Positions 20,363 to 62,659 of a stretch of 64,000 nt of DNA are shown piece by piece (the stretch's first letter is position 1; every line of letters starts with the position of its first letter). The position numbers and the translations under genes were made by a program. This DNA comes from Algibacter pacificus (GTDB lineage Bacteria > Bacteroidota > Bacteroidia > Flavobacteriales > Flavobacteriaceae): assembly GCF_008033385.1 (NCBI RefSeq), contig NZ_VOGY01000001.1:558001-622000 (forward strand). Direction: 5' to 3'. The notes below the pieces were generated by a model. It made no database searches. It had not been told where the DNA came from and saw only the letters and a list, made by a program, of their open reading frames with translations.

Positions 20363-20643
20363 ATAATACAAAATAGACAAAACATAAGAGTTTTGGCTTT
20401 AATTATTCTTGATTTGTTAACTAAAGAGTTATTAGAAAAAAATAAGAATTCAAAGTCAAATTTTAATTTGAAATCAATATTAAATTATTAATAGTTTATT
20501 AAAAGTGGGGATTTGCAAGTTTGTCAATGCATGATAGTACAGGATAACATTCTTTTTTTAATACACTTATTTTACATTAAAACCACTTAAAATCAGAGGG
20601 TATAGGTATTGAGAGTCTGGTTAAAATTTTAAAAAATAGAAAG
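20363..20643. other. Promoter region in front of the PL40-like lyase
   Basis: These 281 AT-rich bases separate two transcription units. They hold one copy of the locus operator (20530-20546) and a weak -7 box candidate TATTTTAC at 20568-20575. No coding sequence or strong hairpin was seen. Confidence 0.5.
20530..20575 (+). promoter_or_regulatory. Locus operator copy 1 with weak -7 box
   Basis: Direct repeat CATGATA (20530-20536) and CAGGATA (20540-20546), period 10 bp. A weak -7 candidate TATTTTAC starts 22 bp after the end of the repeat, matching 4 of 6 fixed positions of TAnnTTTG. It precedes the PL40-like lyase gene at 20644. Confidence 0.6.
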
Positions 20644-23600
20644 ATGAAAAACTATAAAGCTATTATAAAAATAAAAAAAAATATGCTTCTAGTGCTACTT
20701 TTGTCATTAGTAGCAATTAAAGGATTTTCGCAATCACTAGAACATCCAATAATATGTGTAACAGAAGCCGAAAGAACAGAATTATTAACGAAAATTAATA
20801 ATAATGCTTGGGCGCAAAGTATAGTAAATCAATTAAAAAATGAAGTCGATTCTAGAGTAAATACACATCAAACCAATCCTAATGCTATTTTTTCGGGGTT
20901 GTCAGATTTAGCAGCGAATGATGCACTCTCTGAATCTGCTGCCTCAGCAAAAAATGCTGAACATGGTGCGTTGTTAAGAATTGCTCAATATTCCGGGATG
21001 CTTTATTTTATTACTAAGGAAGAGAAATATGCACAGTTTACTTCAGATATTCTGGAGCACTATTTTGATAAAATATCCATAAGGACTCCAGAAACCACTG
21101 CTATATCAGGAAATTATTTTTACGACCCTCGTTCTACTTATCCATATTTAGCAATAGCCTACGATTTTGTTTACGATTTTTTAAAAAAGTCAGGAACCAA
21201 GGTTTATGATAGATCATCAGCTACTTATGTGGATTACAATCATGCAAAGGCGCAGAAAGCAATAAAAAATATTGCAGGTAATGCGCTAGGAGAGTATAAA
21301 GGCAGTGACAATAGAATTGGTAAAACCGTAAGTAATCATCCTGTATTAACCGCTACGGGTTCTCTATTTTCAATTCTTATGATTGAAGACGATACGGAAC
21401 GTGAACGTATGTTTAATGTGTTCTGGAATACAGGAACAAGGCGTCAAAACTCATTTACAAAAACCATATTACCAATGTTTGGGGAACAAGGCATTTGGCC
21501 AGAATCGACAAGTTATAGCTTTATGCCAAATATTTCTCTAATATTAAATATAGTAGATCGTATTAAACCAGAGTTGAATATTACAACAACCAATATAGAT
21601 ATATTTAACGGAAACTTTATATTCTCTAATTTAAGACACCCAAACAGACGTTTTGTACGTTTTGGAGATTCTAAGAGAGATAATGACGCTACAGCTGAAA
21701 ATTACAGGTATGCTTTGGATATTGCTACACGAAGAAATCTTTCAGAATTAAAACAGCGTTCTGAAGTAGCATTAAATCAAAATTACAAGGCCAATGGAGG
21801 TTATAATCCAACGTTGTCTAATAGTAGTTTTGAAAATTATTCTGGACTTGAACTATTCTGGGGGCACCAATTACCAACGGATATTACTGACGGTATCGAT
21901 TTTAAACCCACAGTGGTTGTGAAACATGCAGGCGTTGCTTTACAGCGTAATTACGTAGAAGCTAATAATAGTGAGTATGGTTTATGTGGTATTATAGGTG
22001 GTGCACACTATGTACATTCTCATGCTACAGGTATTAGCATGGAGTTATATGGTGCTGGATACATCATGGCGGCAAATGGCGGTATGCCAAAAACAGTACC
22101 CGAAAGAAAAATCCCTTTGCATACAGATTATTTTAGGTTATATGCAGGTAATAATACGGTAATAGTGAATGGTACTTCACATGGAAGACAATCAGGCTCT
22201 TGGGCTAGGGATGCTTACCTTTGGCAGAATACTACAGTAAATATTGCTGCTGAACCCAAACATCTTGAAGACCCAATAACTGATAATATTAGTTTCGCGA
22301 CACAGCTTTTAGAAGATAGGATTAATAATTGTGATCAGCAACGTACGTTAAGTACCATTAGAACGAGCCCAACAACGGCCTATTACTTAGATGTTTTTCG
22401 TTCTAAATCTTTATCCGAAAATAACTTCCATGACTATGTTTATCATAATCTAGGTGATGAAACACAAATCAGTCATTCAGATAACGAGACATTTACTTTC
22501 ACTGCAACCAATCGTTATAATACTAATATTGGTGACCCTGTAAACTCTCCAGGTTGGGAGTTTTTTGAAAACACTCAAGTGACTCCATCAACAAAAGCTA
22601 ATGTTAATGTGCGTTTTGATTTAAAGCAAAACAATAGATATATGCACATGATTATGCCTGGTGGTGTGGAGCGTGAGTACACCAAGGCACTTGCACCTCC
22701 AACACGTGAGGCAAGTAATGGATATATTAATAAGAAAACCCAAGTTATAGCAGTACGCCAGCAAGGAGAAGCTTGGGATAAACCTTTTATTAACATATTT
22801 GAACCTTCAAAAAACACAACGGCTTCGGTGAAAGATGTTATTAATATTTTTGATGGTGATAAAATTGTTGGTGTTCAGGTGATTTCAGAAGTAGGAAGTG
22901 CCAAAATTATTGATTTTATAATTTCTCAAGACCATGCATTGGCTGTATATGACAATCCGCTTTCAAAAATAAAATTTGAAGGTCGTTTTGCTATGATTCG
23001 AAAAAAAGAGATTGCGGGGAAAACAGAACTTAGTTTATATATAGGTGAAGGGAAAAGCTTAAGTTTTGAAGGTGAGGAACTTATTGCGGATAGTTCTGAT
23101 AAAGGATATAAAACAGTGAATTTTGACGGAATTTATCCTGAGTATGTACCAATAGGGTCAAGTCCTGTTACTGTACAAACATTAGGTGAAACCTGCGTAG
23201 ATAAAGGTAATGGGAAAATTGTTATAGAGGTTTTAGGAAATGAAGGTCATAAAGCGACATTAAATGGAGTTGATTATGATTTTACCAGTAATTTAACCAT
23301 TGAAAACTTAGTACCAGGGGTATATAATTTATGCGTAACAAAAAATGGTGGTAGTTTTGAGCAATGTTATGAATTAACTATTGAAGAGGCAGAATCACTT
23401 TTAGGAAAAATGGCTATTGTAAAAAATAAAGTAAATGTTGATATTGAGCAAGGTAGTGCTCCATATTCGCTTATTATAAATGACGAACTAATGCTAACTA
23501 CAAATGAAACTCATTTTGAAGCTAATGTAGTTCATGGTGATAGGGTTGAGGTTAAGAGTGCGGCAGAATGTCAAGGTTTATTATCTAAAAAAATTAACAT

Positions 23601-23841
23601 GTTGGAAGCTGTTAAAGCATATCCAAATCCAACAAAAGGAAGGTTCGATGTTTACCTTGCTACAAATAAAACACACGTTAATATAGAAGTTTATAATATT
23701 TATTCACAGCTGGTATCAACTAAAACATATGAAGTCATTGGCGGCAAAGTACATATAGATATTACAAACAAAGCACAAGGTGTTTATTTTGTTAAGGTTA
23801 AAGAGATGGAAGGCGTAATAATAAAAGTAATAAAACAATAA
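20644..23841 (+). CDS. Heparinase II/III-fold polysaccharide lyase, PL40-like (candidate ulvan lyase), T9SS-secreted
   Basis: A 1065-residue secreted protein. After a signal peptide ending KGFSQS comes an alpha/alpha-toroid (about 30-420; EHGALLRIAQYSGMLYF, YPYLAIAYDFVYDF, GEQGIWPESTSYSFMPN) and a central beta-sheet domain (about 420-840; GIIGGAHYVHSHATGISMEL, LHTDYFRLYAGNNTVIVNG), as in heparinase II/III-type lyases. The C-terminal ~80 residues (AYPNPTKGRFDVYL, NIYSQLVSTKTYEV, AQGVYFVKV) are a type IX secretion sorting domain. The closest family I can name is PL40, founded on an ulvan lyase from Formosa agariphila. Beta-elimination at a uronate next to rhamnose-3-sulfate is therefore the likely reaction. 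A locus operator copy lies about 100 bp upstream, and an FN3 lipoprotein gene follows after 2 bp. Confidence 0.85.
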   Translation: MKNYKAIIKIKKNMLLVLLLSLVAIKGFSQSLEHPIICVTEAERTELLTKINNNAWAQSIVNQLKNEVDSRVNTHQTNPNAIFSGLSDLAANDALSESAASAKNAEHGALLRIAQYSGMLYFITKEEKYAQFTSDILEHYFDKISIRTPETTAISGNYFYDPRSTYPYLAIAYDFVYDFLKKSGTKVYDRSSATYVDYNHAKAQKAIKNIAGNALGEYKGSDNRIGKTVSNHPVLTATGSLFSILMIEDDTERERMFNVFWNTGTRRQNSFTKTILPMFGEQGIWPESTSYSFMPNISLILNIVDRIKPELNITTTNIDIFNGNFIFSNLRHPNRRFVRFGDSKRDNDATAENYRYALDIATRRNLSELKQRSEVALNQNYKANGGYNPTLSNSSFENYSGLELFWGHQLPTDITDGIDFKPTVVVKHAGVALQRNYVEANNSEYGLCGIIGGAHYVHSHATGISMELYGAGYIMAANGGMPKTVPERKIPLHTDYFRLYAGNNTVIVNGTSHGRQSGSWARDAYLWQNTTVNIAAEPKHLEDPITDNISFATQLLEDRINNCDQQRTLSTIRTSPTTAYYLDVFRSKSLSENNFHDYVYHNLGDETQISHSDNETFTFTATNRYNTNIGDPVNSPGWEFFENTQVTPSTKANVNVRFDLKQNNRYMHMIMPGGVEREYTKALAPPTREASNGYINKKTQVIAVRQQGEAWDKPFINIFEPSKNTTASVKDVINIFDGDKIVGVQVISEVGSAKIIDFIISQDHALAVYDNPLSKIKFEGRFAMIRKKEIAGKTELSLYIGEGKSLSFEGEELIADSSDKGYKTVNFDGIYPEYVPIGSSPVTVQTLGETCVDKGNGKIVIEVLGNEGHKATLNGVDYDFTSNLTIENLVPGVYNLCVTKNGGSFEQCYELTIEEAESLLGKMAIVKNKVNVDIEQGSAPYSLIINDELMLTTNETHFEANVVHGDRVEVKSAAECQGLLSKKINMLEAVKAYPNPTKGRFDVYLATNKTHVNIEVYNIYSQLVSTKTYEVIGGKVHIDITNKAQGVYFVKVKEMEGVIIKVIKQ

Positions 23842-23843
23842 AG

Positions 23844-26230: not shown

Positions 26231-26251
26231 TTAATTTAGAAGAGGGTTTTA

Positions 26252-29245: not shown

Positions 29246-30298
29246 ATGCAAGCAATTTTAGGAGTTTTATTTCATTCATTAGGAGGCGTAGCAGCAGGTA
29301 GTTTTTACATGCCATATAATAAAGTAAAAGGTTGGGCTTGGGAAACCTATTGGATGGTTGGTGGAGTTATGTCTTGGCTAATCGTGCCGCCGATAGCTGC
29401 TTATTTAACTGTTCCTGGTTTTGTAGACATTATTGCATCGAGTTCAAGTTCTATTTTATCTTTTACTTTTTTAATGGGGTTGCTTTGGGGAGTTGGCGGT
29501 TTATCTTATGGCTTAGGTGTTCGTTATTTAGGGATGTCTTTAGGGAATTCTGTAGTCTTAGGGTTTTGTGCCGCTTTTGGTGCCGTTGTTCCATCAATTT
29601 ATTATAATTTTAATCCCGAAGATGGTAAAACGTCATTTACAGATATGATATCTACCACAGGAGGACAGGTTGTTTTACTTGGTGTTTTAGTTTGTTTGGT
29701 GGGTATTGCGCTTTCTGGTAAAGCAGGCATGATGAAAGAAAATGAGCTGTCTGATGAACAAAAAAAAGAAAGTGTAAGTGAGTTTAATTTAATAAAAGGA
29801 TTGGCTGTTGCTATTTTATCTGGAATTTTAAGTTCCTTTTTCAGCTTTGGCATAGAGGCCGGGAAACCATTGGCAGATGCTGCTGTAGAAGCTGGGTATG
29901 ACCATTTGTTTGCTAACAATGTCACTTTTATTGTTATTCTTTGGGGCGGTTTAGCAACTAATTTAGTTTGGACAACTATTTTAAGTATTAAAAATAAGTC
30001 GTATGTAGATTTTACTAATAAAAGTACGCCAATTCGTAAAAATGTATTGTTTTCCGCTTTAGCTGGGACCATTTGGTTTTTACAGTTCTTTTTCTACGGT
30101 ATGGGCGAAAGTAAGTTAGGGAATGGAGCTAGTTCGTGGATTTTGCATATGTCTACTATTATTTTAACAGCCAATCTTTGGGGTATTTATCGTAAAGAAT
30201 GGAAAGGTGTTGCCGCTAAAACTAAATGGACCATAACTTCAGGTATTGTGGTTATTGTATTATCTGTTGTTTTGGTAGGGATTGGTAATTCTTTATAA
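29246..30298 (+). CDS. rhaT: L-rhamnose/H+ symporter RhaT
   Basis: A 350-residue inner-membrane protein with about ten hydrophobic segments and the characteristic RhaT opening (LGVLFHSLGGVAAGSFYMPYNKVKGWAWE, in two overlapping motifs: a GSFY turn and a KGWAWETYW turn). Further family motifs are GLLWGVGGLSYGLGVRYLG, LGFCAAFGAVVP and LSSFFSFGIEAGKPLA. RhaT imports L-rhamnose with protons. It is the last gene of the run from 24818 and is followed after 18 bp by a strong terminator. It is the clearest evidence in the window that free L-rhamnose is the end product of the pathway. Confidence 0.93.
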   Translation: MQAILGVLFHSLGGVAAGSFYMPYNKVKGWAWETYWMVGGVMSWLIVPPIAAYLTVPGFVDIIASSSSSILSFTFLMGLLWGVGGLSYGLGVRYLGMSLGNSVVLGFCAAFGAVVPSIYYNFNPEDGKTSFTDMISTTGGQVVLLGVLVCLVGIALSGKAGMMKENELSDEQKKESVSEFNLIKGLAVAILSGILSSFFSFGIEAGKPLADAAVEAGYDHLFANNVTFIVILWGGLATNLVWTTILSIKNKSYVDFTNKSTPIRKNVLFSALAGTIWFLQFFFYGMGESKLGNGASSWILHMSTIILTANLWGIYRKEWKGVAAKTKWTITSGIVVIVLSVVLVGIGNSL

Positions 30299-30870: not shown

Positions 30871-32043
30871 TTAGTTACAAGAACCTAGGTTGTTCCAACC
30901 CGTACTTGTTCGTTGATATAATGTTCCTTGGTAAGTCACTTTGTCACCTACATAGTAATAACGATAACTGTTAAATGCAGGTATTCCTGCACAAATATCA
31001 ACAGTCGTTACAGCTCCACAAACCCCTATATAATTCCAGTAACCAGGATCTGCTATTCGATATAGTTTTCCTTGGTAAGTCACTAATTCCCCTTTACTAA
31101 AGGTCCTAGAACCCCACGCAGGAACACCATTACAATCATAAGTTGTTCCAGTTGAGGTATCAGGGTACATTTCATTAATTCCAGTAATATCTCCAGAAGA
31201 TAATCCAGATCTATTCGCAGTATACGTTGTACCATTTTTTCTTAAAATAGTTGGCTGGCCATTACGAGAAAAAGCGTATGAAGAGTACAGCATAATTGAA
31301 TTAAAATCAAGAGAGGAAGTGTATTCTCTACCATCTTGCCCTTGTTGCCCATAGGTATAGAAATTAAATTCTCTACCTGGTTCAATGTTCCCAAAATTAA
31401 CAGTAATAAAATTGTCTCTATCTGCTCTACTCTGTTCATGCCATAATCCAACGGCATGGCCAATTTCATGAATTACACTTCCTGTAGTACATCCAGAAGC
31501 AAGCGTAATATTTTGTTGGCCACCTATTCTTCCAACGTTGGAAGAACAACCCTCACCAGGTGTGAAAAACACAAAATCTGATTGGTTTGTGCGTTGTACA
31601 AATTTTAATGCCGTTTTGGATTGCCAATGATTAATGGCATCGAATACACGCTGCTGATTTGGGAGGCTGGAACTTATTACATAATAAACAGTGTTGTTAG
31701 GCCATCTTCCACCAGTACGCCCTACACTTTTTCCTTTACTAGCCAGATTTGAAGTTGGAGCAGGAAATAAGGTTGGCTCGGTTGTTAATTGATCTAGCTC
31801 AAATATCATATCACCACCAAGAACATAAGTGTTGTTTATTTTTTCTACGGTCAGTTTGGTAGAGCCATAATATAGTTCGTGTATAGTTCCATTATCTTTT
31901 GAAAACGCTAATTCTGGGTCGGTCGGATCAATCGTTTCATCTGTAATTAACTGTTCTTCTTCTGTTAAATTTTCATTGTGTTCACATGAAGTAAATAAAA
32001 GCAACATGATAGTGAAAAATGCTAATATATTTTTAAATTTCAT
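30871..32043 (-). CDS. Astacin-family (M12A) zinc metalloprotease lipoprotein with two C-terminal chitin-binding-like repeats
   Basis: About 390 residues from ATG 32041-32043; an upstream in-frame ATG at 32076 would add 11 residues before the signal. The lipobox is LLFTSC. The zinc site HEIGHAVGLWHE (H192, E193, H196, H202) followed by SRADRD and the Met-turn SIMLYSSY identify an astacin-type protease, close to flavastacin-like enzymes. The C-terminal ~80 residues form two similar modules, each starting C-x-G-(V/I)-P-A and containing the YQGKLY/YQGTLY strand and a W-N-x2-G-x-C ending. These resemble small chitin-binding (type 5/12) domains. It lies downstream of the PL28-like lyase on the same strand with no terminator between. 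It may trim surface proteins or attack algal cell-wall protein; this is inference. Confidence 0.88.
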   Translation of the reverse strand: MKFKNILAFFTIMLLLFTSCEHNENLTEEEQLITDETIDPTDPELAFSKDNGTIHELYYGSTKLTVEKINNTYVLGGDMIFELDQLTTEPTLFPAPTSNLASKGKSVGRTGGRWPNNTVYYVISSSLPNQQRVFDAINHWQSKTALKFVQRTNQSDFVFFTPGEGCSSNVGRIGGQQNITLASGCTTGSVIHEIGHAVGLWHEQSRADRDNFITVNFGNIEPGREFNFYTYGQQGQDGREYTSSLDFNSIMLYSSYAFSRNGQPTILRKNGTTYTANRSGLSSGDITGINEMYPDTSTGTTYDCNGVPAWGSRTFSKGELVTYQGKLYRIADPGYWNYIGVCGAVTTVDICAGIPAFNSYRYYYVGDKVTYQGTLYQRTSTGWNNLGSCN

Positions 32044-32161
32044 ATTAATAATAGGTTTTATATTTGTTGAAATCATTTTTATTTTTTTTAATAAAAAAAA
32101 TATTATATAAGTAATTACTCTATGTAATTCTTAATTTATTTAAAATATTAAGCGCTGGTAG

Positions 32162-33622
32162 CTAGTAATCATAAAGTTCTAATTCTTTTACTTCTACATA
32201 TCCTTCTGCTCCTCTTATTGATTGAATTCCAAAGGCATGCCCATAGGCGTTTATACCTTCTATCATTACCGTATTGCTATAGTTACCTCTTACTGATTTG
32301 GCAACTTTCCATCCATTGTTATAATATAAGATATCAAAATCTCTCATAACTCTCGCATTAAATACTACTTTAGCTCTTTTTAATGTGTAAAATCTATTAT
32401 GATCTGCAATCATCCAATGTTGTGTAGTTGTATTAAAGTTGGCAGATGCCCAGTATGAATTATAGTTTCCGTCCATTACACTTGCTGCTGGGTAAGCTGC
32501 TTCATACCAGTATGAGCTAGATCTTCTGTTAAAGCTTGTTGGTGCAAAGTTTCTAGAAGGATCCCAGTTACTACCTCCGTTATTGGAAGAATTATTAGAA
32601 CAGCTAGAACCTCCAACTACAGAATTCATGCTTACGCCACTAGCCCATCTAATATCTGCTTCACCACCCCAACATCTGTAAGCTCCAAATCGTATTTTTG
32701 CTTGCGTACCACGAGTAGGTTCTGGTATATTATAAGTTCTAGTTAAATTTCTTGGATTACCATTTACGTCTTTACCTCTTAAAGTAATTATTACACGGTG
32801 CACTAAATTATTACATGAACCGGCAAATTCGTTAACCATAGTAACTTGAATAGGTTCACCTCTATTGAAATCAAAATTAAGGTTATCTATATATCTCGCA
32901 GTAGAATTTCTTAGAGCTCCAGCACCGTTTTGCATATGTTCTACGTAAAATCTAAACCGTGTTTGGTTACTGCCAGTTCCAGAAACTGGTTTTACTAATA
33001 ATAGAGCAAGGGCTGGGTCGCTGTTATTACTTTGACCACTAGTTCTTGTATCTTTCCCTTTAGCTTGGCAAATATAAGTTCCTGAGTTGTTTTGTGCAAG
33101 TGAGCCACCATTAGTAGCATCACCAACTCTCCAAACTCTTACAGTACCATTAAAAGTAACTTTAGTACCAGGTGCATTAGAATTAGCAGCTACACTGGCT
33201 CGTTCTATTCTTGGTTGCTTATTGTCAAATGCATTTGTTCCAGCTCTTAATCTGTATCTTCCATATGTAACATTTGCTACATTTGTTTGCGAATAGTTAT
33301 AAGCACAAGTTCTGTCATCCAAAATAGGTCTCACACCATTAACATCTGTTACACCAGCGCCTAGAACTTCATCAGCAGTGTACTCTTTATAACCTTCAGG
33401 ATTGTCACAAGGTTGTGTTGTTTGTTTTCCTTGAACCCTAGCTTGTAAGTCATTGTCTTTTTCGGGGATTTCCTCAGGACTAGGTAATTCTGATAAGTCA
33501 AAAGTGTTTTGTTCTTTTGAATTTTCAATACCGTCAACATCTTCGGAACATGAGAAGGTAAAGCTTAGTGTAAGCAATAAAATTAATCTGGTTAAATTAA
33601 TTGTAGTTAATTTTTTCTTCAT
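32162..33622 (-). CDS. PL28-like ulvan lyase with C-terminal discoidin-type binding module
   Basis: A 486-residue lipoprotein (lipobox FTFSC). Residues about 75-340 form a beta-jelly-roll lyase domain: YGRYRLRAGTNAFDN, TRFRFYVEHMQNG, and a closing IRFGAYRCWGGEADIRW strand, the pattern of PL7-like and PL28 lyases. Residues about 350-486 are an F5/8 type C (CBM32-like) module (APTSFNRRSSSYWYEAAYP, SVMDGNYNSYWAS, WMIADH, VEVKELELYDY). PL28 enzymes cleave ulvan by beta-elimination, and this two-module plan with a binding domain fits them; assignment is from pattern recognition. A tandem operator copy lies upstream on the same strand (33680-33696), with a -7 box at 33652-33659. Together with the astacin-type gene downstream it forms a probable two-gene unit. 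Confidence 0.82.
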   Translation of the reverse strand: MKKKLTTINLTRLILLLTLSFTFSCSEDVDGIENSKEQNTFDLSELPSPEEIPEKDNDLQARVQGKQTTQPCDNPEGYKEYTADEVLGAGVTDVNGVRPILDDRTCAYNYSQTNVANVTYGRYRLRAGTNAFDNKQPRIERASVAANSNAPGTKVTFNGTVRVWRVGDATNGGSLAQNNSGTYICQAKGKDTRTSGQSNNSDPALALLLVKPVSGTGSNQTRFRFYVEHMQNGAGALRNSTARYIDNLNFDFNRGEPIQVTMVNEFAGSCNNLVHRVIITLRGKDVNGNPRNLTRTYNIPEPTRGTQAKIRFGAYRCWGGEADIRWASGVSMNSVVGGSSCSNNSSNNGGSNWDPSRNFAPTSFNRRSSSYWYEAAYPAASVMDGNYNSYWASANFNTTTQHWMIADHNRFYTLKRAKVVFNARVMRDFDILYYNNGWKVAKSVRGNYSNTVMIEGINAYGHAFGIQSIRGAEGYVEVKELELYDY

Positions 33623-33651: not shown

Positions 33652-33696
33652 TAAAACTATATCGTTTTTTCCTACAAGGTGTCCTGCCGTATCCTG
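33652..33696 (-). promoter_or_regulatory. Locus operator copy 2 and -7 box (for PL28-like lyase)
   Basis: On the minus strand, CAGGATA (33696-33690) and CAGGACA (33686-33680) form a direct repeat with 10-bp period. TAGTTTTA (33659-33652), 5 of 6 fixed positions of TAnnTTTG, starts exactly 21 bp past the repeat end. Confidence 0.7.
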
Positions 33697-33841: not shown

Positions 33842-33886
33842 CATGATAGTACAGGATAATGCTTTTAAGAGGTTCTAATATCTTTC
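33842..33886 (+). promoter_or_regulatory. Locus operator copy 3 and -7 box (for GH78)
   Basis: CATGATA (33842-33848) and CAGGATA (33852-33858), 10-bp period. TATCTTTC (33879-33886) matches 5 of 6 fixed positions of the -7 box and starts 21 bp after the repeat end, 40 bp before the ATG at 33926. Confidence 0.75.
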
Positions 33887-33925: not shown

Positions 33926-36790
33926 ATGGTAATGATAAAAAGACAGGTATTGTTTTCACTAGTAGTTTTGGCCATTTTTTGTGTGTCATGTAAGGAGGTT
34001 TCCATCTCGAAAATATCTATGGATTTTGAGAAATTAACAGTTAACTCCAAAGAAAATCCGTTAACCATAGAAAACGAACAACCGCTTTTTTCGTGGATTT
34101 TGAATGTTGAAGGATTAAACAAATCGCAATCTGCGTATCAGGTTTTGGTAGCGTCTTCCGAAGATAGGTTAAATGAAGAAAATGCCGATTTATGGAGTTC
34201 TAGCAAGGTTAATAGCAATGCATCTACATTTGTAAAATACCAAGGCGAAGCACTAGAAGCTATGCAAACCTATTTTTGGAAAGTTAAAATTTGGGACGAA
34301 AATGGAAACCCTACAAATTGGTCTAAAGTCCAAAAGTTTCAAATGGGCTTGATGAGCAATAAAAACTGGGGAGATTCAAAATGGATTACCCTAAATAAAG
34401 ATACTAGAACTTCGCCTCACCAATTTAGAGATTATAAAACCGGTAAGATGGAGAGCCCGCAAAAAGTTAATGGCTTTGCTGCTAGTTATTTTAGAAACGA
34501 ACTAGAAATTGATAAAAAAATAAAAAAGGCCCAAGTTTATATTTGTGGTTTAGGGTATTATGAGTTGTATTTAAATGGAGATAAAGTAGGCGATCATGTT
34601 TTAGATCCTGCACCATCCAATTATAATAAGCAAGCCTATTATGTAAATTACGACGTTACGCAAGCATTGCAATCTGGTAAAAATGCAATGGGGATTATTT
34701 TAGGGAATGGTTTTTACGGCCAAAATATCTCTTGGAAACGCGATCCAGAATCTGAAAAAGATTTAGCTTATGGGCCACCAACAGTAAAGCTTTTATTAAA
34801 GTTAACCTTTGCCGATGGATCTAAAAAAGACTTTTATACCGATGAAAATTGGAAAGAATCTACGGGGCCAATAGTATTCAATAATATCTATGGAGGTGAT
34901 ACGTATGATGCACGTTATGATATTGGAAAATGGAATACAGTTGGATATAATGATGAATCTTGGGGGAATGCTAAAGTAACTTTACCAGAAGTTAAAAAGA
35001 TTAGCGCACAACAAATTCCGCCAATTAAGAAATTAAAGGAATTTGAACCACAAAACGTATTTAAAGGAGTAGATGGAGAATGGATTGTAGATTTTGGACA
35101 AAATATAGCGGGCTGGGTAAAACTTAACGTTAAGGAAAAAGAAGGGCAGTTAATTGAGATTATAACTACCGAAGCCTTATTAACTAATGGCAAAGATATT
35201 TTTCAAGGCTCCACAGGAGGAGGTGCAAACGGGATGGCTCAAATTTATAAATACATTTGTAAAGGAAGTAATCAAGAATCTTGGGAACCAAAATTTAGTT
35301 ACCATGGATTTCGCTACGCCAAAATAAAAGGGGTTTCTACGAAGCCAGATGCAGATATGATTAAAGCAGTTTTGGTAGCTACCGATATTCAAGAAACAGG
35401 AAGTTTTAAATCTTCTGATGAGTTGCTAAACAAAATGCACAGTATTAGTAAATGGACGATTGTTGATAATGTACACGGCATTCCAGAAGATTGTCCGCAT
35501 CGTGAAAAATGTGGTTGGTTAGGAGATGCTCATGCCTTTTGCGAATATGCACTTTATAATTATGATATGTATGATTTTTATAAAAAATACATGGAAGATA
35601 TTGTAACACAAATGCGCCCAACAAAAGGACATAACAATCCGGAGTTGAAATATCAAGTGCCAACCATGATTGCTCCAGGAAAACGAACATCTACCTATGC
35701 CAAAATAGATTGGGGGGTGGCAACAATGTATTTGCCATGGTATAATTATTTATACTATGGCGATGACGCTATAGTTAAAGAATATTATCAACCCATGAAG
35801 GGCTTAACTAATTTTTACTTGAACTTTAAAGGCGATAACGGAATCATGCAAGATGGTATGGGCGATTGGTGCCCACCACGTTGGGATAGAAAGAAAAACC
35901 CAAGCGCCATGGAATGTGATCCAATAATTTCTGCAAACGCCTACTTTTATGATGTTTTAGGAGTTATGAAGCGCTTTGCAAAAATGAATGATGATATATC
36001 TTTTGAGACGAAAATGAAAAAGGAGCAAGACGAATTAAAAACAGCCTTCAATAAAGAATATTTAATTGAAATTCCAGATACTAAATATAAATGGTATGGC
36101 AGTCAAACAGCAACAGTACAAGCGCTGCAGTTTGGTATGGTTCCAGAGACTGAAATAGAAGCAGTTGTTAATGGTTTAGCTCATGATATTGTTGCCGTAA
36201 AAGGTGGTCACCATTCCACAGGGATTCATGGCAACCGCTATATCTATACAGTATTAGCCAAGTATGGTAAAGCAGATTTAGCTCATCAAATATTAACAAC
36301 ACCAGACTTTCCAAGTCAGGCTTATGTAATGAGTAAAGGGTTTACCACATGGCCAGAACGCCAGTTCGAATGGGAGAAAATGGAAGGGCCTACAAATTCA
36401 TTAAACCATCCAATGCATAGCGGTTTTGCAGCCTATTTTTATGAATCTTTAGGAGGTGTAAAATCGTCCGAATCAGATCCTGGGTACAAAATGTTTACCG
36501 TTAATCCAGAATTTTCAAGTAAAATAACCAGTACTTCGGTATCAGTGCCTACCCCATATGGTGATATAAAAAATGATTGGACCATAAATAAAGGTGTATT
36601 ATCCATGTCGTTAAAAGTGCCGTTTAATACTAAAGCCAAACTTATGTTAACGTCTTCAGAACTAGAATCTTTAAAAGTTAATGGAAAACCTTTTGAGGTG
36701 TTTCAAAAGGAAAATAAATTAGAAAAAATAGATGGAACTCACGTTATGTTAGGTTCTGGAGCTTATAAAGTAGAATATATTAAATCTTAA
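33926..36790 (+). CDS. GH78 alpha-L-rhamnosidase (lipoprotein)
   Basis: A 954-residue GH78 enzyme, a paralogue of the one at 8736-11579, with which it shares long stretches (SQSAYQ-LVASS, NWGDSKWI-LNKDTRTSPH, GDHVLDPAPSNYNKQAYYV, WYGSQTATV-ALQFGMVPE). The signature DCPHREKCGWLGD gives D522, E527 and D534 at the catalytic spacing. Unlike the other copy it begins with a lipobox signal (LAIFCVSC), so it should be membrane-anchored. An alternative start codon lies two codons later at 33932. A locus operator copy and -7 box sit just upstream, and GH43 follows after 10 bp. It should release alpha-L-rhamnose from ulvan-derived oligosaccharides. Confidence 0.95.
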   Translation: MVMIKRQVLFSLVVLAIFCVSCKEVSISKISMDFEKLTVNSKENPLTIENEQPLFSWILNVEGLNKSQSAYQVLVASSEDRLNEENADLWSSSKVNSNASTFVKYQGEALEAMQTYFWKVKIWDENGNPTNWSKVQKFQMGLMSNKNWGDSKWITLNKDTRTSPHQFRDYKTGKMESPQKVNGFAASYFRNELEIDKKIKKAQVYICGLGYYELYLNGDKVGDHVLDPAPSNYNKQAYYVNYDVTQALQSGKNAMGIILGNGFYGQNISWKRDPESEKDLAYGPPTVKLLLKLTFADGSKKDFYTDENWKESTGPIVFNNIYGGDTYDARYDIGKWNTVGYNDESWGNAKVTLPEVKKISAQQIPPIKKLKEFEPQNVFKGVDGEWIVDFGQNIAGWVKLNVKEKEGQLIEIITTEALLTNGKDIFQGSTGGGANGMAQIYKYICKGSNQESWEPKFSYHGFRYAKIKGVSTKPDADMIKAVLVATDIQETGSFKSSDELLNKMHSISKWTIVDNVHGIPEDCPHREKCGWLGDAHAFCEYALYNYDMYDFYKKYMEDIVTQMRPTKGHNNPELKYQVPTMIAPGKRTSTYAKIDWGVATMYLPWYNYLYYGDDAIVKEYYQPMKGLTNFYLNFKGDNGIMQDGMGDWCPPRWDRKKNPSAMECDPIISANAYFYDVLGVMKRFAKMNDDISFETKMKKEQDELKTAFNKEYLIEIPDTKYKWYGSQTATVQALQFGMVPETEIEAVVNGLAHDIVAVKGGHHSTGIHGNRYIYTVLAKYGKADLAHQILTTPDFPSQAYVMSKGFTTWPERQFEWEKMEGPTNSLNHPMHSGFAAYFYESLGGVKSSESDPGYKMFTVNPEFSSKITSTSVSVPTPYGDIKNDWTINKGVLSMSLKVPFNTKAKLMLTSSELESLKVNGKPFEVFQKENKLEKIDGTHVMLGSGAYKVEYIKS

Positions 36791-42808: not shown

Positions 42809-42820
42809 TGTGTTTTTTTT

Positions 42821-46255: not shown

Positions 46256-46352
46256 AAATTTGATATTAGTTAAAATTAGGTTAATTCTTAATTGATGTAC
46301 TAGGGGACAGCTGTTTAAATTTTCCAGGTCTAGACGCTGTTCCTCTTTTTTT

Positions 46353-47492: not shown

Positions 47493-47760
47493 ATGTCGTA
47501 ATTAGGTTTACTATAGTTATGACAATAGAATTCTTAAAATGGGTGACAAATAATTGATAAAATTTTATGTTATGGGTAAAAAAGCAGAATTAGTCTTAGT
47601 AAAATAGTAAATATGTTGGGTATTTAGTAATATGGTTTGTGGTGGATTGTGTTTTTGGAACTTAATTTTTTTTATGTTTAAAAAAGTGTCTTAACCATAT
47701 AAATAGGGCTAAATAAAAAAATATGTTAATTTTTAAAATATAGATAATTGAAGAAAATAA
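47493..47760. other. Gap between ECF sigma factor and anti-sigma genes
   Basis: No gene is seen in these 268 very AT-rich bases. The space is larger than usual for a sigma/anti-sigma pair, leaving room for a promoter in front of the fecR-like gene, but no box could be assigned with confidence. Confidence 0.3.
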
Positions 47761-48315
47761 TTACGAAAAACAAAGTAGTATAAAAAGAATAAACAGCATT
47801 AGCCTAGATTTGGCTCTTTTTAATTGGGTTTTAACCGTGTTTATGGATACGTTTAATTCCATCGCTATATCTTTATACGCGTAATTGTTTATGAAACGAA
47901 GTTTAACTATGTGTTTCATTTTATCTGGAAGGCTTTCTATTAAATCTATTGTTTTGTCGTGCAAAATTTGCTTGTGGTCATCTTCTAGCGCAAAGGGAGT
48001 ATGTATTTCTTTTGTAAGGTTATCAAAAATAAAATTTTCATCTGTGTATGTAATCTTAACCATTTTTAATTCATTTAAACACTTATTTCTTACCATGGCA
48101 TAGAGGTATGCCTTTATGCTGGTTTTAATTTTTATAAGGTGCGATTTTTCCCAAAGACATAAAAAAACTTCTTGAACGATATCTTCGCTCAACCCATAAT
48201 CAAATAAGTATTTGTTTGCATAAACTACCAGGTTAATATAGTGTTCATCAAAAACCTGCTTGAAAGCATAATGATTCTTATTGCGTATTTTAAATAAAAT
48301 GTCTTTAGAATCCAT
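47761..48315 (-). CDS. ECF RNA polymerase sigma factor (FecI-like)
   Basis: A 184-residue sigma-70-family factor of the extracytoplasmic-function type. Region 2 spans about residues 20-90 (YANKYLFDYGLSEDIVQEVFLCLW, including the SEDIVQEVFL helix) and region 4 about residues 120-175 (LPDKMKHIVKLRFINNYAYKDIAMELNVS, with a helix-turn-helix ending SINTVKTQLKRAKSRL). There are no other regions. It is the partner of the FecR-type protein encoded next to it and is expected to drive the SusC/SusD genes at 46255-41288. The C-terminal tail is strongly hydrophobic (LFILFILLCFS), which is unusual for a soluble factor and might touch the membrane. Confidence 0.93.
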   Translation of the reverse strand: MDSKDILFKIRNKNHYAFKQVFDEHYINLVVYANKYLFDYGLSEDIVQEVFLCLWEKSHLIKIKTSIKAYLYAMVRNKCLNELKMVKITYTDENFIFDNLTKEIHTPFALEDDHKQILHDKTIDLIESLPDKMKHIVKLRFINNYAYKDIAMELNVSINTVKTQLKRAKSRLMLFILFILLCFS

Positions 48316-48446: not shown

Positions 48447-49016
48447 TTACTTATATGTTTTTTTTAAAATTTCAATAATATCTTTAGAGGGCATTCTTTG
48501 GGTATAATTGGCTTCAACGTGCGAAGCAATTATTTTAAAATTTGTGTCTATTACAAAAGTGGCAGGAACAGGAAGTGTTACTGATCCATCACCATTTAAT
48601 ACAGAAAGATCTCTTCTTTGATGATAATTATCGCCAGGATCAAATTGAAGATTATAAGCCTTAATTACTCCTTGATCGATATCACTTAATACTTCGAAAC
48701 CCAGTTCGTTTTTTTGTAAAATATTTAGGGCATCATCTGGTTTTTGTGGGCTTATAGCTAGGATTTTTGCGTTAAATTTATTGAACTCACTTAAGTGTTT
48801 TTGGATTTCTCTTAAATCAAAGTTACAGATTGGGCACCATTCTCCTCGATAAAACTTTAAAACAATAGGGCCTAATTTTAAACAATCAGATAGAGAAATG
48901 GGATCACCAAACGCATTTGGTAAGCAAAAATTTGGAGCTTTTTCTCCAGGCTTTATACCTGTTACATCTGAAGCATTAGCAATAACTAATTTTTGAAAAC
49001 CTTCTAGTTTATCCAT
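48447..49016 (-). CDS. Peroxiredoxin-like (AhpC/TSA) protein
   Basis: A 189-residue cytoplasmic protein with a thioredoxin fold: KPGEKAPNFCLPNAFGDPISL, then the active site FYRGEWCPICNFDL (C61 and C64, a CxxC pair), and LPVPATFVIDTNFKIIASHV near the end. This matches the peroxiredoxin-like family annotated as redoxin/AhpC-TSA proteins, which use the first cysteine to reduce peroxides. It has no obvious carbohydrate role. It lies on the minus strand between the sigma factor gene and the divergent GH39 unit, and may be a stress gene caught between parts of the locus. Confidence 0.85.
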   Translation of the reverse strand: MDKLEGFQKLVIANASDVTGIKPGEKAPNFCLPNAFGDPISLSDCLKLGPIVLKFYRGEWCPICNFDLREIQKHLSEFNKFNAKILAISPQKPDDALNILQKNELGFEVLSDIDQGVIKAYNLQFDPGDNYHQRRDLSVLNGDGSVTLPVPATFVIDTNFKIIASHVEANYTQRMPSKDIIEILKKTYK

Positions 49017-49163
49017 GAAAAACGATATTGATTGGTGTTTTTTTATAAATTAAATTATATACATGTTTACAGCAACTTTTCTTGTGCTATGTATCTATAG
49101 TGTTTTGTTGTTATTTATTGAAGTTTTAAAAGTAAATATATTTAAGTAATATTTAATATCCAT

Positions 49164-49218
49164 CCTGCTGTATCATGACACTACAGGTCACATTTTTTAG
49201 TTTAACCATTTACTTTTG
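49164..49218 (+). promoter_or_regulatory. Locus operator copy 4 with exact -7 box (for GH39 unit)
   Basis: CATGACA (49174-49180) and CAGGTCA (49184-49190), 10-bp period. TACTTTTG (49211-49218) is an exact TAnnTTTG and starts 21 bp after the repeat end. This copy is also part of a 24-bp dyad (49164-49187) built as CCTG-N2-GT-N-TCATGA-N-AC-N2-CAGG. Confidence 0.75.
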
Positions 49219-56411: not shown

Positions 56412-57644
56412 TTAGTTTTTGTAGTAGGTTGAAGGTGAGTTTTGAATAGATTTTCCCATGCCAACGGGGGTGAAAATTATACCAGCCCAACGGCCTCGAG
56501 TCCATTCTTCACCATCAGTACCTATTTGTGATATTACTTTAATTTTGTCTCCTTTTTGTATAGGTATGTTTTCCCAAAGGGCATTATATTTTTTTCCTTC
56601 TTCAAACATTCTGTGGGTTAATTCTGGCGAATAACTTCCAATTTTGGTTTCATTTACTGTAACAGTAAATTTGGATTTACCATCATTTTCTGCAACACCT
56701 ACAAAAACAATATCATAATGACCAGATTTAAAATTAAAAGTAGTTGTCGTTGTAGCTTGGTTATGATTTTTGGGGTTTATGGCGAGCCAATTTTTTCCGT
56801 TTTTATAAAAATTTGTACCTTCTGTAGGAAATTCTTGAGCGGCTATTGATTTAATTTGTTCCGATGCTTCAGTTATAGTTGAGAAGTAAGAAGGCACCTT
56901 GACTTCTGGAAAACTTTCAAGTATTTCACCTTGTGCTAAAGTAACTTCTGGCCCTTTGTTAATAGGTATATAGTTCATGTCTTTGGTTAAAATAAATTTA
57001 TCAAACTCAAAACCGTCTTCCCGCATACTAAATTGAATGGTATGATTACCCGCTTTATCAATGTCTAAATATATGTTATGCGGCACGCCGCAGTGAATAT
57101 CTTTTGTTCGTTGCTTACTTTCCCAAGTCCATTGGTTTTTGCCTGTACACCATTGCATACGTTTTCCGTGTTTAGGCCAAACATTATTTAAGCCAACATG
57201 TAAGCCGTTATCTTCTCCACCTGTACTAAAGGCCCGTACCCATACATAGTAACGTCCTGGTGTGTTAAACTTTACTTTGTAGCTTAAAACTGCTATTTTT
57301 CCAGGTTCGTTGGAAAAGTTTTCTCCATGTATTAATTTATCTGAGTGTGTAACACGTTCATCGGGTAATATTTCAAGATATGCATTATTACTAGCATCAT
57401 AAACGTGGTGTTTGTCTTCGTCTCTTCCTGCTTTTGGTAGTTCGTTTTTTGAGGTTCTAAACCATTTTCTTTTTTTTGTTAAAGTTTGTTCGTGAAAATA
57501 CTCAGCCTCAATGGCAACCTTACCATTTTGTTCTTCAAATGTTACTAAATTATTTATTATGGGAAGGCTTAAAGTATCATTTTGAGCATTGAGAGATATA
57601 AATATCATTAAAATAAATACAGTAAATATATTCTTTTTTTTCAT
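56412..57644 (-). CDS. Exported beta-rich carbohydrate-binding-type protein
   Basis: A 410-residue protein with signal peptide MKKKNIFTVFILMIFISLNAQ. The segment VAIEAEYFHEQ followed by NNAYLEILPD, LSYKVKFNTPGRYYVWVRAF and NHTIQFSMREDGFEFDKFILTKD is a CBM6/CBM35-like beta sandwich, similar to the module found at the C-terminus of GH115 glucuronidases. A second beta region follows (FNFKSGHYDIVFVGVAENDG, then TVNETKIGSY). No catalytic motif was found. It is divergent from the second SusC gene, with tandem operator copies on both strands of the shared upstream region. Probably binds or positions oligosaccharides; exact function unknown. Confidence 0.7.
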   Translation of the reverse strand: MKKKNIFTVFILMIFISLNAQNDTLSLPIINNLVTFEEQNGKVAIEAEYFHEQTLTKKRKWFRTSKNELPKAGRDEDKHHVYDASNNAYLEILPDERVTHSDKLIHGENFSNEPGKIAVLSYKVKFNTPGRYYVWVRAFSTGGEDNGLHVGLNNVWPKHGKRMQWCTGKNQWTWESKQRTKDIHCGVPHNIYLDIDKAGNHTIQFSMREDGFEFDKFILTKDMNYIPINKGPEVTLAQGEILESFPEVKVPSYFSTITEASEQIKSIAAQEFPTEGTNFYKNGKNWLAINPKNHNQATTTTTFNFKSGHYDIVFVGVAENDGKSKFTVTVNETKIGSYSPELTHRMFEEGKKYNALWENIPIQKGDKIKVISQIGTDGEEWTRGRWAGIIFTPVGMGKSIQNSPSTYYKN

Positions 57645-57676: not shown

Positions 57677-57721
57677 TAAAAATAAGCACTAACTTTTATT
57701 AAAGTAACCTGTTCTGTCCTG
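57677..57721 (-). promoter_or_regulatory. Locus operator copy 5 and -7 box (minus-strand unit)
   Basis: On the minus strand, CAGGACA (57721-57715) and CAGGTTA (57711-57705), 10-bp period. TATTTTTA (57684-57677), 5 of 6 fixed positions, starts exactly 21 bp past the repeat end, 33 bp before the ATG at 57644. Confidence 0.65.
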
Positions 57722-57775
57722 TATCTTGTTTTTGTAGAATTATAAATAAATAAGTGTAGTTTTTTTTAAAATAAA

Positions 57776-57820
57776 ACCGATACTACAGGATAGTTATCAG
57801 TAAAAGGGTAGGTAAATTTG
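57776..57820 (+). promoter_or_regulatory. Locus operator copy 6 and exact -7 box (for second SusCD)
   Basis: ACCGATA (57776-57782) and CAGGATA (57786-57792), 10-bp period. TAAATTTG (57813-57820) is an exact TAnnTTTG, 21 bp past the repeat end and 30 bp before the SusC ATG at 57850. Confidence 0.75.
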
Positions 57821-57849
57821 GAATAAGACAAACAATTAACTAAATATCT

Positions 57850-60800
57850 ATGAATTTAAAAATCAAATTAAAATGTCATTCCTATTTTAGAAAAAAATGG
57901 ATGTGCGCTGCGTTCCTATTATTAGGTATAGCAGTATCTAATGCGCAAACCGTTTCAGGAATCGTAACTGCAGATGGACAACCTTTACCAGGAGCTGCTG
58001 TTATTGTAAAAGGAACAAGTCAAGGTACTACCACAGATTTTGATGGAGAGTTTTCTATTAAGGCTAGTGCGCAAAACACTCTTTCTATCTCGTATGTAGG
58101 GTACTCCACAAAAGAAATTTTAGTAGGTAATCAAACTCAAATTAACGTTGTTTTAGAAGAAGACAACAAACTAGATGAAGTGGTTATTATTGGGTATGGA
58201 ACCCAGCGTAAGTCCGATTTAACAGGGTCAGTATCCTCAGTAAGTTCAGAAGATTTAACCGCTACCCCGGTTTCAAGGGTAGATCAAGCCTTACAAGGGC
58301 GAGCTTCTGGAGTTCAAGTTACTCAAACCAGTGGTGCTCCCGGTGCGGGAACCGTAATTAGAGTAAGGGGAGGAAATTCCATAACAGGAAGCAACGAACC
58401 ACTTTGGGTTATTGATGGCATAGTAGTAGGAACCAATTTTAACCTAAATAATATTAATAGTAGTGATATTAAATCTATCGAGATTTTAAAGGATGCCTCA
58501 TCTATTGCTATTTACGGTTCTAGAGGGGCCAATGGTGTTGTTCTTGTAACCACTAAAAATGGTTCTGGAGCTGGTGGAGGAAAACCAGAGGTTAGTGTAA
58601 ACCTTTATTCAAGTATGCAGTTAGTGCCAGAATTACCAAATATGTTGTCTCAGGAGGAGCAAATTGCATTTACCAATGAAAGCGCAAGGTTTAGATCTGC
58701 GGCAGAGCCTTTTTTAGATGATCCGTCTACTTATCCAGATAACGATTGGTTCGATTTACTATTAGGTACAGCGCCCATTTTTAATACCGATGTATCCATA
58801 TCTGGTGCAACAGATAATGTTAATTATTATACCTCGTTAAATTACTTTAATCAAGAAGGTATTGTAGAAAGCACAGGTATTGAAAAATATATTTTTAGAA
58901 GTAATTTAGACATTAAACTTAGCGATAAGCTAAAAGCGGGTTTCAGAATTAATTATTCTAGAATCGAGCAAGATAACGGAAACGCAAGTTTTGGTAATGC
59001 TTTTGCTACTTTGCGTACGCAACCTATTTATAATGACGATGGTACTTTTAATGGATACGATGATGTGGTGAGTGCGCCCTGGTCTAACCCAATAGCAAAT
59101 ATAGCATTAAATACAAATGAAACATTTTCTAATAACCTCTTAGGGTCAATTTACCTAGAGTTTAAACCTTCTGAAAAATGGATGGTTCGCTCAACGTTTA
59201 GTCCAGAATTTAACAATACTAAACAAAATAAATTTACTTCTAGCCAAAGTCCAAATTTATTATATTTAGGAGAAGGCGGTAATGCAAGTGTAAGAACGGT
59301 AGCTAGTAATGGTTGGAATAATGAAAACACAGTGCAGTACCAGTCCGATTTAGGAGAAAACCACTCTATAACAGCTTTAGCTGGAGCGTCTTTTCAAAAG
59401 GTATATACCGAAACTGTACAAGCTGAAGCTTTCGGTATTACTAGTGATGCAGCAGGATTTAATAACTTAGCTTTTTCAGACCCCATAAGATCAAAAGTTA
59501 GTAGTGATTATAATAGCTTTCAAATTGCTTCATTTTTTGGAAGACTTAATTACTCCTATAAAGATAAGTACTTATTGACTTTAGTAGGTCGAACAGATGG
59601 AAGTTCGGTTTTTGCTCCAGGAAACCAATATGAATTTTATCCATCTATAGCAGGTGCTTGGAAAGTAACTGAAGAACCTTTTATGCAAAACCAAACAGTG
59701 TTTCAAGATTTAAAATTAAGAGCCAGTTACGGTAAATCAGGTAACCAAGCTATAGAGCCTTACAGAACAAAAGGAATTTTGGTAGAAGCTAATACCACTC
59801 TTAATGGGGTAGAACAACCAGGTTTAACGTTAGGAAGACCTTCAAACCCTAACCTGCAATGGGAAACAACTAATTCTTTAGATATTGCTTTAGAAGCTTC
59901 TCTTTTTGGAGGTAAAGTGTTTACTGAGTTAAATTACTACTATAAAAAAACTAACGATTTACTTTTGGATGTTACCATCCCAAGACAAACAGGTTTTGAT
60001 ACGCAATTACAAAATGTAGGTTCTTTAGAAAACAAAGGTTGGGAGTTTATGTTAAATACAACTAATGTAAGTAATGCAAACTTTAACTGGAATTCAACAT
60101 TAACCTTGTCTTCTAATCAAAATAAAATTTTAGAACTTGGAGACGTAGATTTTATTGATGTTACCGTAGATGCTATTTTAGGCTCAGGTAACACCCGTTT
60201 AATCGCGGGCGAGTCTGTTCCTGTGTTTACCGGAGTACCTTTTTTAGGGACTTGGAAAAGTCAAGCAGAAATAGCAGCATCAAGTTTAACTCCAGAGGAA
60301 CAAAATAAACAAGTTGTGGGTGGTTCTAGATTTGATGATGTAAATGGAGATGGTATTATTTCTGTTGAAGATGCTGTAGTACTAGGAAGTCCTTTGCCAG
60401 ATTTAATCTTCGGATTTGAAAATTCTTTTTCATACAAAAATTGGGATTTCTCATTTTATTTCCAAGGAACACTAGGGAACGAAGTGTATAATTTAAGAAC
60501 TCGAAATCATTATTTCAATAGAGGAGAAACCACTAAGTTTGCAGATATTGCAAACCGATGGACTCCAGATAACCCAGACTCTAATATTCCTAGAGCTGGT
60601 GCCGATTCTGTAACTGGAACCCCTCCAAATTCGGAATATGTTGAAGATGGTTCTCATTTAAGATTAAAAACAGCAAGAATTGCCTATAACCTACCAGTTA
60701 AAGAAATGGGATTAAATAGCTTTAAAAAAGCTACTATATATTTCTCAGGAAGTAATTTATTGTTAATTTCTAATTTTAGATTAATAGATCCAGAATCAAG

Positions 60801-60903
60801 TAGATTTGGGCGTAGTGGCCTAGGTAATATAGCTCAAGGTTATAATGATGGATCGTACCCTAATCCAAGAGTTTTAACCCTTGGTCTAAACGTAACATTT
60901 TAA
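57850..60903 (+). CDS. susC: SusC-like TonB-dependent transporter
   Basis: A 1017-residue outer-membrane transporter without an STN domain. After the signal peptide (ending AVSNAQ) comes a carboxypeptidase-regulatory domain (VSGIVTADGQPLPGAAVIVKGTS, in two overlapping family motifs), then DEVVIIGYGTQRKSDLTGSV, the plug (VIRVRGGNSITGSNEPLWVIDG and IAIYGSRGANGVVLVTTK) and the barrel ending PRVLTLGLNVTF. It is paired with SusD after 12 bp. Unlike the first SusC it cannot signal through a FecR-type protein. It is instead preceded by an operator copy with an exact -7 box, so it is expected to share control with the enzyme genes. Confidence 0.96.
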   Translation: MNLKIKLKCHSYFRKKWMCAAFLLLGIAVSNAQTVSGIVTADGQPLPGAAVIVKGTSQGTTTDFDGEFSIKASAQNTLSISYVGYSTKEILVGNQTQINVVLEEDNKLDEVVIIGYGTQRKSDLTGSVSSVSSEDLTATPVSRVDQALQGRASGVQVTQTSGAPGAGTVIRVRGGNSITGSNEPLWVIDGIVVGTNFNLNNINSSDIKSIEILKDASSIAIYGSRGANGVVLVTTKNGSGAGGGKPEVSVNLYSSMQLVPELPNMLSQEEQIAFTNESARFRSAAEPFLDDPSTYPDNDWFDLLLGTAPIFNTDVSISGATDNVNYYTSLNYFNQEGIVESTGIEKYIFRSNLDIKLSDKLKAGFRINYSRIEQDNGNASFGNAFATLRTQPIYNDDGTFNGYDDVVSAPWSNPIANIALNTNETFSNNLLGSIYLEFKPSEKWMVRSTFSPEFNNTKQNKFTSSQSPNLLYLGEGGNASVRTVASNGWNNENTVQYQSDLGENHSITALAGASFQKVYTETVQAEAFGITSDAAGFNNLAFSDPIRSKVSSDYNSFQIASFFGRLNYSYKDKYLLTLVGRTDGSSVFAPGNQYEFYPSIAGAWKVTEEPFMQNQTVFQDLKLRASYGKSGNQAIEPYRTKGILVEANTTLNGVEQPGLTLGRPSNPNLQWETTNSLDIALEASLFGGKVFTELNYYYKKTNDLLLDVTIPRQTGFDTQLQNVGSLENKGWEFMLNTTNVSNANFNWNSTLTLSSNQNKILELGDVDFIDVTVDAILGSGNTRLIAGESVPVFTGVPFLGTWKSQAEIAASSLTPEEQNKQVVGGSRFDDVNGDGIISVEDAVVLGSPLPDLIFGFENSFSYKNWDFSFYFQGTLGNEVYNLRTRNHYFNRGETTKFADIANRWTPDNPDSNIPRAGADSVTGTPPNSEYVEDGSHLRLKTARIAYNLPVKEMGLNSFKKATIYFSGSNLLLISNFRLIDPESSRFGRSGLGNIAQGYNDGSYPNPRVLTLGLNVTF

Positions 60904-60915
60904 AAATATACACAG

Positions 60916-62508: not shown

Positions 62509-62540
62509 TACTTTTTTAAAGTTAGTTTAGTTTTATTTAT

Positions 62541-62575
62541 AAAGGCTGGGATTTAATTTTTCCCAGCCTTTTTTT
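62541..62575 (+). terminator. Intrinsic terminator after the second SusD gene
   Basis: AAAGGCTGGGA and TCCCAGCCTTT form an 11-bp stem around a loop of about 9 bases, followed by a T-run. Confidence 0.88.
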
Positions 62576-62614
62576 ATGGTTAATTTAAGTAAATGGATTA
62601 AATAATTTGATATG

Positions 62615-62659
62615 CAGTATAGTACAGGATACAAAACATAGTTCTTGAAATTAACTTTG
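62615..62659 (+). promoter_or_regulatory. Locus operator copy 7 and exact -7 box (for GH3)
   Basis: CAGTATA (62615-62621) and CAGGATA (62625-62631), 10-bp period. TAACTTTG (62652-62659) is an exact TAnnTTTG, 21 bp past the repeat end and 42 bp before the ATG at 62701. Confidence 0.75.

Follow-up and report, generated by a model that had tools for sequence, protein, structure and literature searches.

What reads the repeated element found before the polysaccharide-degradation genes of Algibacter pacificus was the question raised by a stretch of 64,000 bp, the window (C1:558001-622000 of a 4.17-Mb genome in 56 contigs). The element, derived by ungapped counting, is a 10-bp tandem repeat of the approximate form CAKKAYA-GTA-CAGGATA-S that ends 20 nucleotides (nt) before a -7 promoter box, TAnnTTTG. 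These operators belong to a regulon that covers much of an ulvan cluster and the L-rhamnose operon, and a GntR-family protein encoded outside the window is their probable reader.

Operators in the window

The following operators with their promoter boxes were found (box scores refer to six fixed positions):

20530-20574, plus strand, ahead of the heparinase-II/III-like gene 20644-23841: operator at 20530-20546, weak -7 box at 20567-20574 (4/6)
33652-33696, minus strand, ahead of the PL28 ulvan lyase gene 32162-33622: operator at 33680-33696, -7 box at 33652-33659 (5/6)
33842-33886, plus strand, ahead of the GH78 alpha-L-rhamnosidase gene 33926-36790: operator with a -7 box scoring 5/6
49133-49177, minus strand, facing the AhpC/TSA gene 48447-49016: operator at 49161-49177, -7 box at 49133-49140 (5/6)
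49174-49218, plus strand, ahead of the GH39 gene: operator with an exact -7 box
57677-57721, minus strand, ahead of the GH115_C-domain gene 56412-57644: operator at 57705-57721, -7 box at 57677-57684 (5/6)
57776-57820, plus strand, ahead of the SusC-type gene 57850-60903: operator with an exact -7 box
62615-62659, plus strand, ahead of the GH3 gene, which starts at 62701: operator with an exact -7 box

All seven sites of the preliminary description were present where it had placed them, its coordinate for a minus-strand site being the low, promoter-proximal end of the 17-mer, and the heptamer starts were 10 bp apart in every one. The fixed promoter distance also held, since in six of the seven the box, with 5 or 6 fixed positions matched, started 20 nt past the last operator base (counted as 21 in that description). 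As had been described, the site at 20530 had the weaker box, scoring 4/6, and the boxes at 49211, 57813 and 62652 were exact. The count of seven was nevertheless one short, as the minus-strand site at 49133-49177, whose operator shares 4 bp with the plus-strand operator starting at 49174, had been overlooked. The GH39 gene probably starts at the ATG near 49246, because the TTG at 49216 falls inside the -7 box. A 17-mer with three mismatches at 26242 (box 4/6) was left out of the site count.

With up to four mismatches allowed, the operator-plus-box pattern was matched 8 times in the window, and 20 Markov-1 sequences of 64 kb yielded no match at all. The 17-mer alone, at three mismatches, occurred 12 times against 3.6 expected, and none of 100 shuffles reached 12. 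The gene labels first given to the targets were borne out by Pfam for GH78, GH39, GH3, PL28 and the SusC-type protein (TonB-dependent receptor) and failed for the other two: the protein called PL40-like showed only Hepar_II_III_C, at 23.8 versus a cut-off of 24, and the one called a carbohydrate-binding type bears a GH115 C-terminal domain.

The regulon in the genome

A regulon inside the locus had been proposed together with a scan of the whole genome, and the scan supported it: at up to three mismatches the operator-plus-box pattern gave 18 matches and the reversed pattern none. Fourteen of the 18, eight of them in the window, fell in one 175-kb cluster, C1:486-661 kb (binomial probability 1e-16, for a span chosen post hoc). 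Without the box the signal was near background, with 226 matches of the 17-mer at three mismatches versus 145 of its reversed form. In the joined region 478-662 kb, all 13 seventeen-mers with up to two mismatches were intergenic according to our own open reading frame calls, and each was aimed at the next gene, 50-162 bp away.

Among the cluster genes behind operators are those for PL28 lyases, of which one has a beta-trefoil ulvan-lyase domain, for GH3 and GH78, for a SusC-type receptor, for a protein of the 3-keto-disaccharide hydrolase type and for a sulfatase-GH78 fusion, a single protein (L031:11253-14780) made up of a sulfatase and a GH78 alpha-L-rhamnosidase. The last site of the cluster, C1:661273, precedes rhaEW at C1:661353. 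Elsewhere, two matches at C1:334-348 kb (L189, L190), whose operators read CAGGWTTAAACAGGATAG, flank a second locus, in which a GntR paralogue stands directly before a hybrid two-component system (HTCS) gene. One match on C2 precedes a gene that is SusC-like by its protein start only, and another match was found at C2:36088.

Structure of the operator and its promoter

Promoters of Bacteroidota have a consensus at -7 and at -33. In a logo of 116 sites, picked with up to three mismatches and therefore biased at the fixed positions, signal was also visible outside the positions used for selection (position 8, G; position 9, T; position 18, C or G), while the spacer and the 30 bp upstream were nearly featureless. 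The logo showed a direct repeat, without a palindrome such as is typical of FadR/HutC operators. Among 164 CAGGATA anchors, the second heptamer lay at offset -10 in 37 cases and at +10 in 20, with at most 2 at any other offset up to 35. The period of about 21 bp that would be expected of direct repeats in an HTCS regulon was not found in these operators.

The spacing was examined without requiring a box. Of 68 sites in six genomes (up to two mismatches), 47 had the box at 20 nt, and none of the other distances between 5 and 40 was seen more than 5 times; with the reversed 17-mer, 4 sites were obtained, with no peak at 20 nt, and no comparable peak was found on the opposite side of the operators. 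This geometry is plausible for a promoter-locked activator. Four tandem decamers at a single promoter were seen at G163:C4:1429 and G184:C6:208935.

A GntR protein as the candidate regulator

The best candidate, C1:657362-658408 (348 amino acids), is encoded near the L-rhamnose operon. Its N-terminal part matched the GntR winged helix (PF00392, 36.6 bits versus a cut-off of 27) and its C-terminal part a LacI/periplasmic-binding-like domain (PF13377, 33.7 versus 26.5). Two paralogues, likewise outside the window, were found, a tandem copy at 658488-659531, which scores under the PF13377 cut-off (23.9), and another at 336509-337549. The 50 Foldseek matches shown were nearly all LacI-type, with one ribose-binding protein, and the AraR DNA-binding domain structure 4egy was matched with an E value of 2.4e-6. 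No Pfam match at E 0.001 was found for an aminotransferase-like domain, the mark of MocR-type proteins. The AlphaFold model is of a monomer (mean pLDDT, a per-residue confidence score, 85.6) and is silent on the dimer. The predicted target DNA of this protein, the operator sequence, is as follows:

CAKKAYAGTACAGGATAS

Among the 30 best GntR loci, rhaEW lay within 1.5 kb in 21 (one of them weak, at 47% identity), and 18 held an operator site, against 0 in the control. A larger set, the best 80 of 566 relatives, including Algibacter, Polaribacter, Hyunsoonleella, Flavobacterium and Zobellia, comes partly from the genomes of the family sample described below and is not independent of it. Here 43 loci held an operator site (control, 0), rhaEW was present in 73, and a site stood directly before rhaEW in 32. 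The Flavobacterium loci mostly failed at three mismatches, and many of them have a near copy, AAGGAYAGTACAGGAYAG, at one and the same place with a weak 4/6 box. When 47 of the named loci were re-examined, 41 matched the 18-mer within three mismatches.

Two genomes offer minimal cases. G265 has 16 sites, 15 of them on the contig read, and a single copy of the GntR candidate, along with three further GntR-domain genes, one of which lies within the 200-kb stretch. Its rhaEW scored above the TIGR02632 cut-off, and behind it come three genes that stayed below their cut-offs, for an L-rhamnose isomerase-like protein, a sugar kinase and a lactate dehydrogenase. In G268, 11 sites with up to three mismatches were found in a 100-kb island, with a LacI-type-looking gene nearby, and PF00392 has no match in that genome other than the GntR candidate. 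In G265 and G268 alike, the rhamnose operon and, judged from protein starts, presumed xylose and uronate genes also stand behind sites. Both islands presumably serve ulvan, since their gene starts resemble those of the cluster around the window. Our own helix-turn-helix profile found no AraC-type gene in the 200-kb stretch of G265 or in 120 kb of G268. Such ulvan-type islands, rich in sites although no AraC-type gene turned up in the stretches read, are in keeping with a GntR-family regulator.

Co-occurrence of regulator and operators

The family sample comprised 397 genomes, and those with at least three operator-plus-box sites were termed motif-rich. Genomes with a GntR match at E<1e-100 were counted as carriers (79/397), a threshold set after the list had been seen, at the gap between 7e-117 and 5e-86. 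As only the first few candidates per genome were scored (5 or 6 for AraC and GntR, 2 for rhaEW), absences are less sure than presences. The GntR candidate was carried by 64 of the 65 motif-rich genomes (Fisher, 4e-58). Because relatedness inflates Fisher values, comparisons were also made with one genome per genus, where 39 of 40 motif-rich genomes carried it (8e-33), and within genera: in all 22 genera with both carriers and non-carriers, the carriers had more sites. In total, the 79 carriers held 521 sites (reversed control, 11) and the other 318 genomes 73 (reversed control, 41), so that without the GntR candidate sites are near background.

The motif tracks the regulator and not the rhamnose pathway, because among 95 genomes with rhaEW at least two sites were present in 68 of the 78 having the GntR candidate versus none of the 17 lacking it (p, 3e-12); a few of these 17 are incomplete (67-86%).

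Concerted change of recognition helix and operator

The 17 rhaEW genomes listed with a distant GntR or none allow a further comparison, for which nine were fetched (41-46% identity) and the other eight left out. The recognition helix contains EK in 80/80 named proteins and in 24/24 aligned proteins. In five genomes whose GntR of the type SRDT[IV]V[RK]AY stands beside rhaEW, the proximal operator half was CAGAAC (four genomes) or CATAAC (one) and not CAGGAT, while two EK-type promoters among those fetched keep CAGGA. The box lay at 20 nt in all seven readable promoters, one of which has an equal box at another distance too. Two further V[RK] genomes, G037 and G247, have the GntR gene apart from rhaEW. 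Thus, in this small set, operator bases differ together with the recognition helix of the GntR protein.

When the family was searched for the CAGAAC form, 50 matches turned up in 34 of 378 genomes, versus 10 in 10 for the control. True CAGAAC matches lay in G051, considered below, and in G108, G222, G247 and G357, all four of the V[RK] type, and the two CAGAAC sites of G247 had not been used in making the pattern. G384 lay outside the sample of this search. The joint change speaks to the choice between binding and travel in a shared island, which co-occurrence cannot separate.

Which regulator acts, and how

An AraC-type or hybrid two-component regulator had been proposed at the outset, together with the absence of any such gene from the window. 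The absence was correct; the class did not find support. Two paralogous cupin-AraC regulators, C1:516059 and C1:660042, are encoded in the cluster. The former was favoured at first for its place inside the cluster, between two sites, and the latter stands directly before the promoter of the rhamnose operon; moreover, all 14 genomes with C1:516059 or an orthologue (at least 65% identity) were motif-rich. This candidate was overturned by the other 51 of the 65 motif-rich genomes, in which neither C1:516059 nor an orthologue was found among the up to six candidates scored per genome. In addition, only 3 of 14 loci of the C1:516059 type hold a site, and rhamnose operators of AraC type are described with a 21-bp period (PMC3870299), so that reading of the repeats by either cluster AraC protein is very unlikely. 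Control by a hybrid two-component system from elsewhere in the genome is the least credible of the alternatives. Five HTCS-type genes (Y_Y_Y plus HTH_18) do exist, one directly behind a GntR paralogue, yet all lie outside the cluster at 486-661 kb, where no Y_Y_Y match was found; G268 has only three HTH_18 matches (one at a place not shown), none of them found in the 120 kb read, and the operators published for Bacteroides average 21 bp between tandem sites (PMC3878776), versus 10 bp here. Scarcely more probable is that the repeats are a general element in the promoters of this family's polysaccharide loci, on which several regulators of unrelated kinds act: this would suit the very different operons that the sites precede in G265 and G268, but not the near-background counts in genomes without the GntR candidate, nor an operator sequence that differs along with the recognition helix of this protein.

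The same GntR protein might instead bind as a repressor, covering the -33 region and leaving when rhamnose or a derivative binds the sensor. This would fit operators that cover that region, although their strict 20-nt spacing and single polarity suit contact with the polymerase. All 47 aligned promoters lack a TTG in the interval 16-23 nt ahead of the -7 box, a weak point against repression given a background of about 2% per spacing. We regard repression, which takes its share of the probability that we give to the GntR protein, as rather unlikely, and of the two modes of action of this protein activation is preferred.

Other points weigh against activation by the GntR candidate or against its role altogether. 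AraR, one of the relatives for which a structure of the DNA-binding domain exists, is called a repressor, and so is, in a title known from reference lists only, a flavobacterial (Zobellia) GntR regulator of alginate use; the name of the latter is reportedly AusR. Most GntR operators are palindromic (PMC4494728). Just 0-1 sites were present in 10 of the 79 carriers, and G021 has 4 sites with no GntR candidate, the sole exception among the 65 motif-rich genomes. Co-occurrence by itself cannot tell binding from joint travel in one island, and the joint change rests on five promoters, read before the pattern was built, from 9 of 17 genomes. The CAGAAC-form search was noisy, most of its matches being either scattered or, in genomes with the main GntR, CAGGAC/CAGGAT look-alikes; G051, whose helix was not read, also has a CAGAAC match, and the V[RK] genome G037 gave none, only a looser site, CGGAACAGTACAGAATA, in its stretch. 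Finally, several GntR paralogues in G000, for which 4 matches were counted and three placed, could share the sites.

Taken with these points, the co-occurrence and the joint change make it probable that the GntR candidate reads the operators, most likely as a rhamnose-responsive activator, for which we infer binding, activation and inducer alike. A dimer would lie head to tail on the operator, each of its winged helices on one CAGGATA, in the place expected for the -33 element, and the bound protein would recruit RNA polymerase. Its LacI-like sensor would respond to L-rhamnose or a derivative, and an end product of ulvan breakdown would thereby signal its own pathway.

Other features of the window

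The rhamnose theme of the locus also shows in a transporter gene:

29246-30298, plus strand: L-rhamnose/H+ symporter RhaT (PF06379, 237.5 bits)

In the scan of the window, no operator-plus-box match was found directly upstream of this gene. At 41288-48315 (minus strand), a SusC/SusD-like pair stands beside a FecR-type anti-sigma factor (Pfam) and a gene like those of extracytoplasmic function sigma factors, possibly a second mode of control in the cluster, without the operator. Behind the PL28 gene, an astacin-type metallopeptidase with a CBM5/12 match is encoded at 30871-32076 (minus strand).

Relation to known systems and meaning

AraR of Bacillus subtilis combines a GntR winged helix with a LacI-like sensor, and its operator is palindromic. 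The candidate resembles it in the GntR DNA-binding domain, the LacI-like C-terminal domain and a role in sugar use; unlike the arabinose repressor, it goes with a direct repeat of 10 bp that keeps a constant distance to the -7 box, and with an ulvan/rhamnose regulon. Among GntR proteins, direct-repeat operators are described for the MocR type (GabR, PdxR, TauR) as exceptions attributed to head-to-tail dimers (PMC4494728). These share the winged helix with our candidate and have an aminotransferase-like domain where it has a LacI-like one. Rhamnose regulators of the AraC, DeoR and LacI families are described by Rodionova (2013, PMC3870299), in the main text of which GntR and the stem Flavobacter occur 0 times. 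The DeoR-family RhaR in that text is similar in controlling L-rhamnose regulons from two imperfect direct repeats with a 10-11-bp period, but belongs to another protein family. The AraC-type RhaR of Bacteroides and HTCS operators likewise place direct repeats before carbohydrate operons in Bacteroidota, but with a period of about 21 bp and an AraC-type DNA-binding domain (PMC3870299, PMC3878776).

In the literature covered, to which most subscription journals do not belong, the few passages considered on ulvan loci assigned no regulator and described no such regulon, and no report was found that links GntR with Flavobacteriaceae and a direct repeat, or Flavobacteri with rhamnose and the GntR family.

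Seen as a whole, a single GntR/LacI chimera may well be the master activator of complete ulvan catabolism in Flavobacteriaceae, reading tandem decamers at the place of the -33 element, sensing rhamnose as the end-product sugar and using more than 10 operators to control the breakdown of the polymer, import, and the catabolism of rhamnose, xylose and uronate, with a natural two-residue switch of the helix from EK to V[RK] that goes with the change from CAGGAT to CAGAAC. If this is true, one gene and one motif would allow the ulvan, xylose, uronate and rhamnose operons of many flavobacteria to be called as a single regulon. The variation would also be a natural case of a change in regulator-operator specificity, and the protein a member of the GntR family that probably works as a promoter-locked activator on direct repeats.

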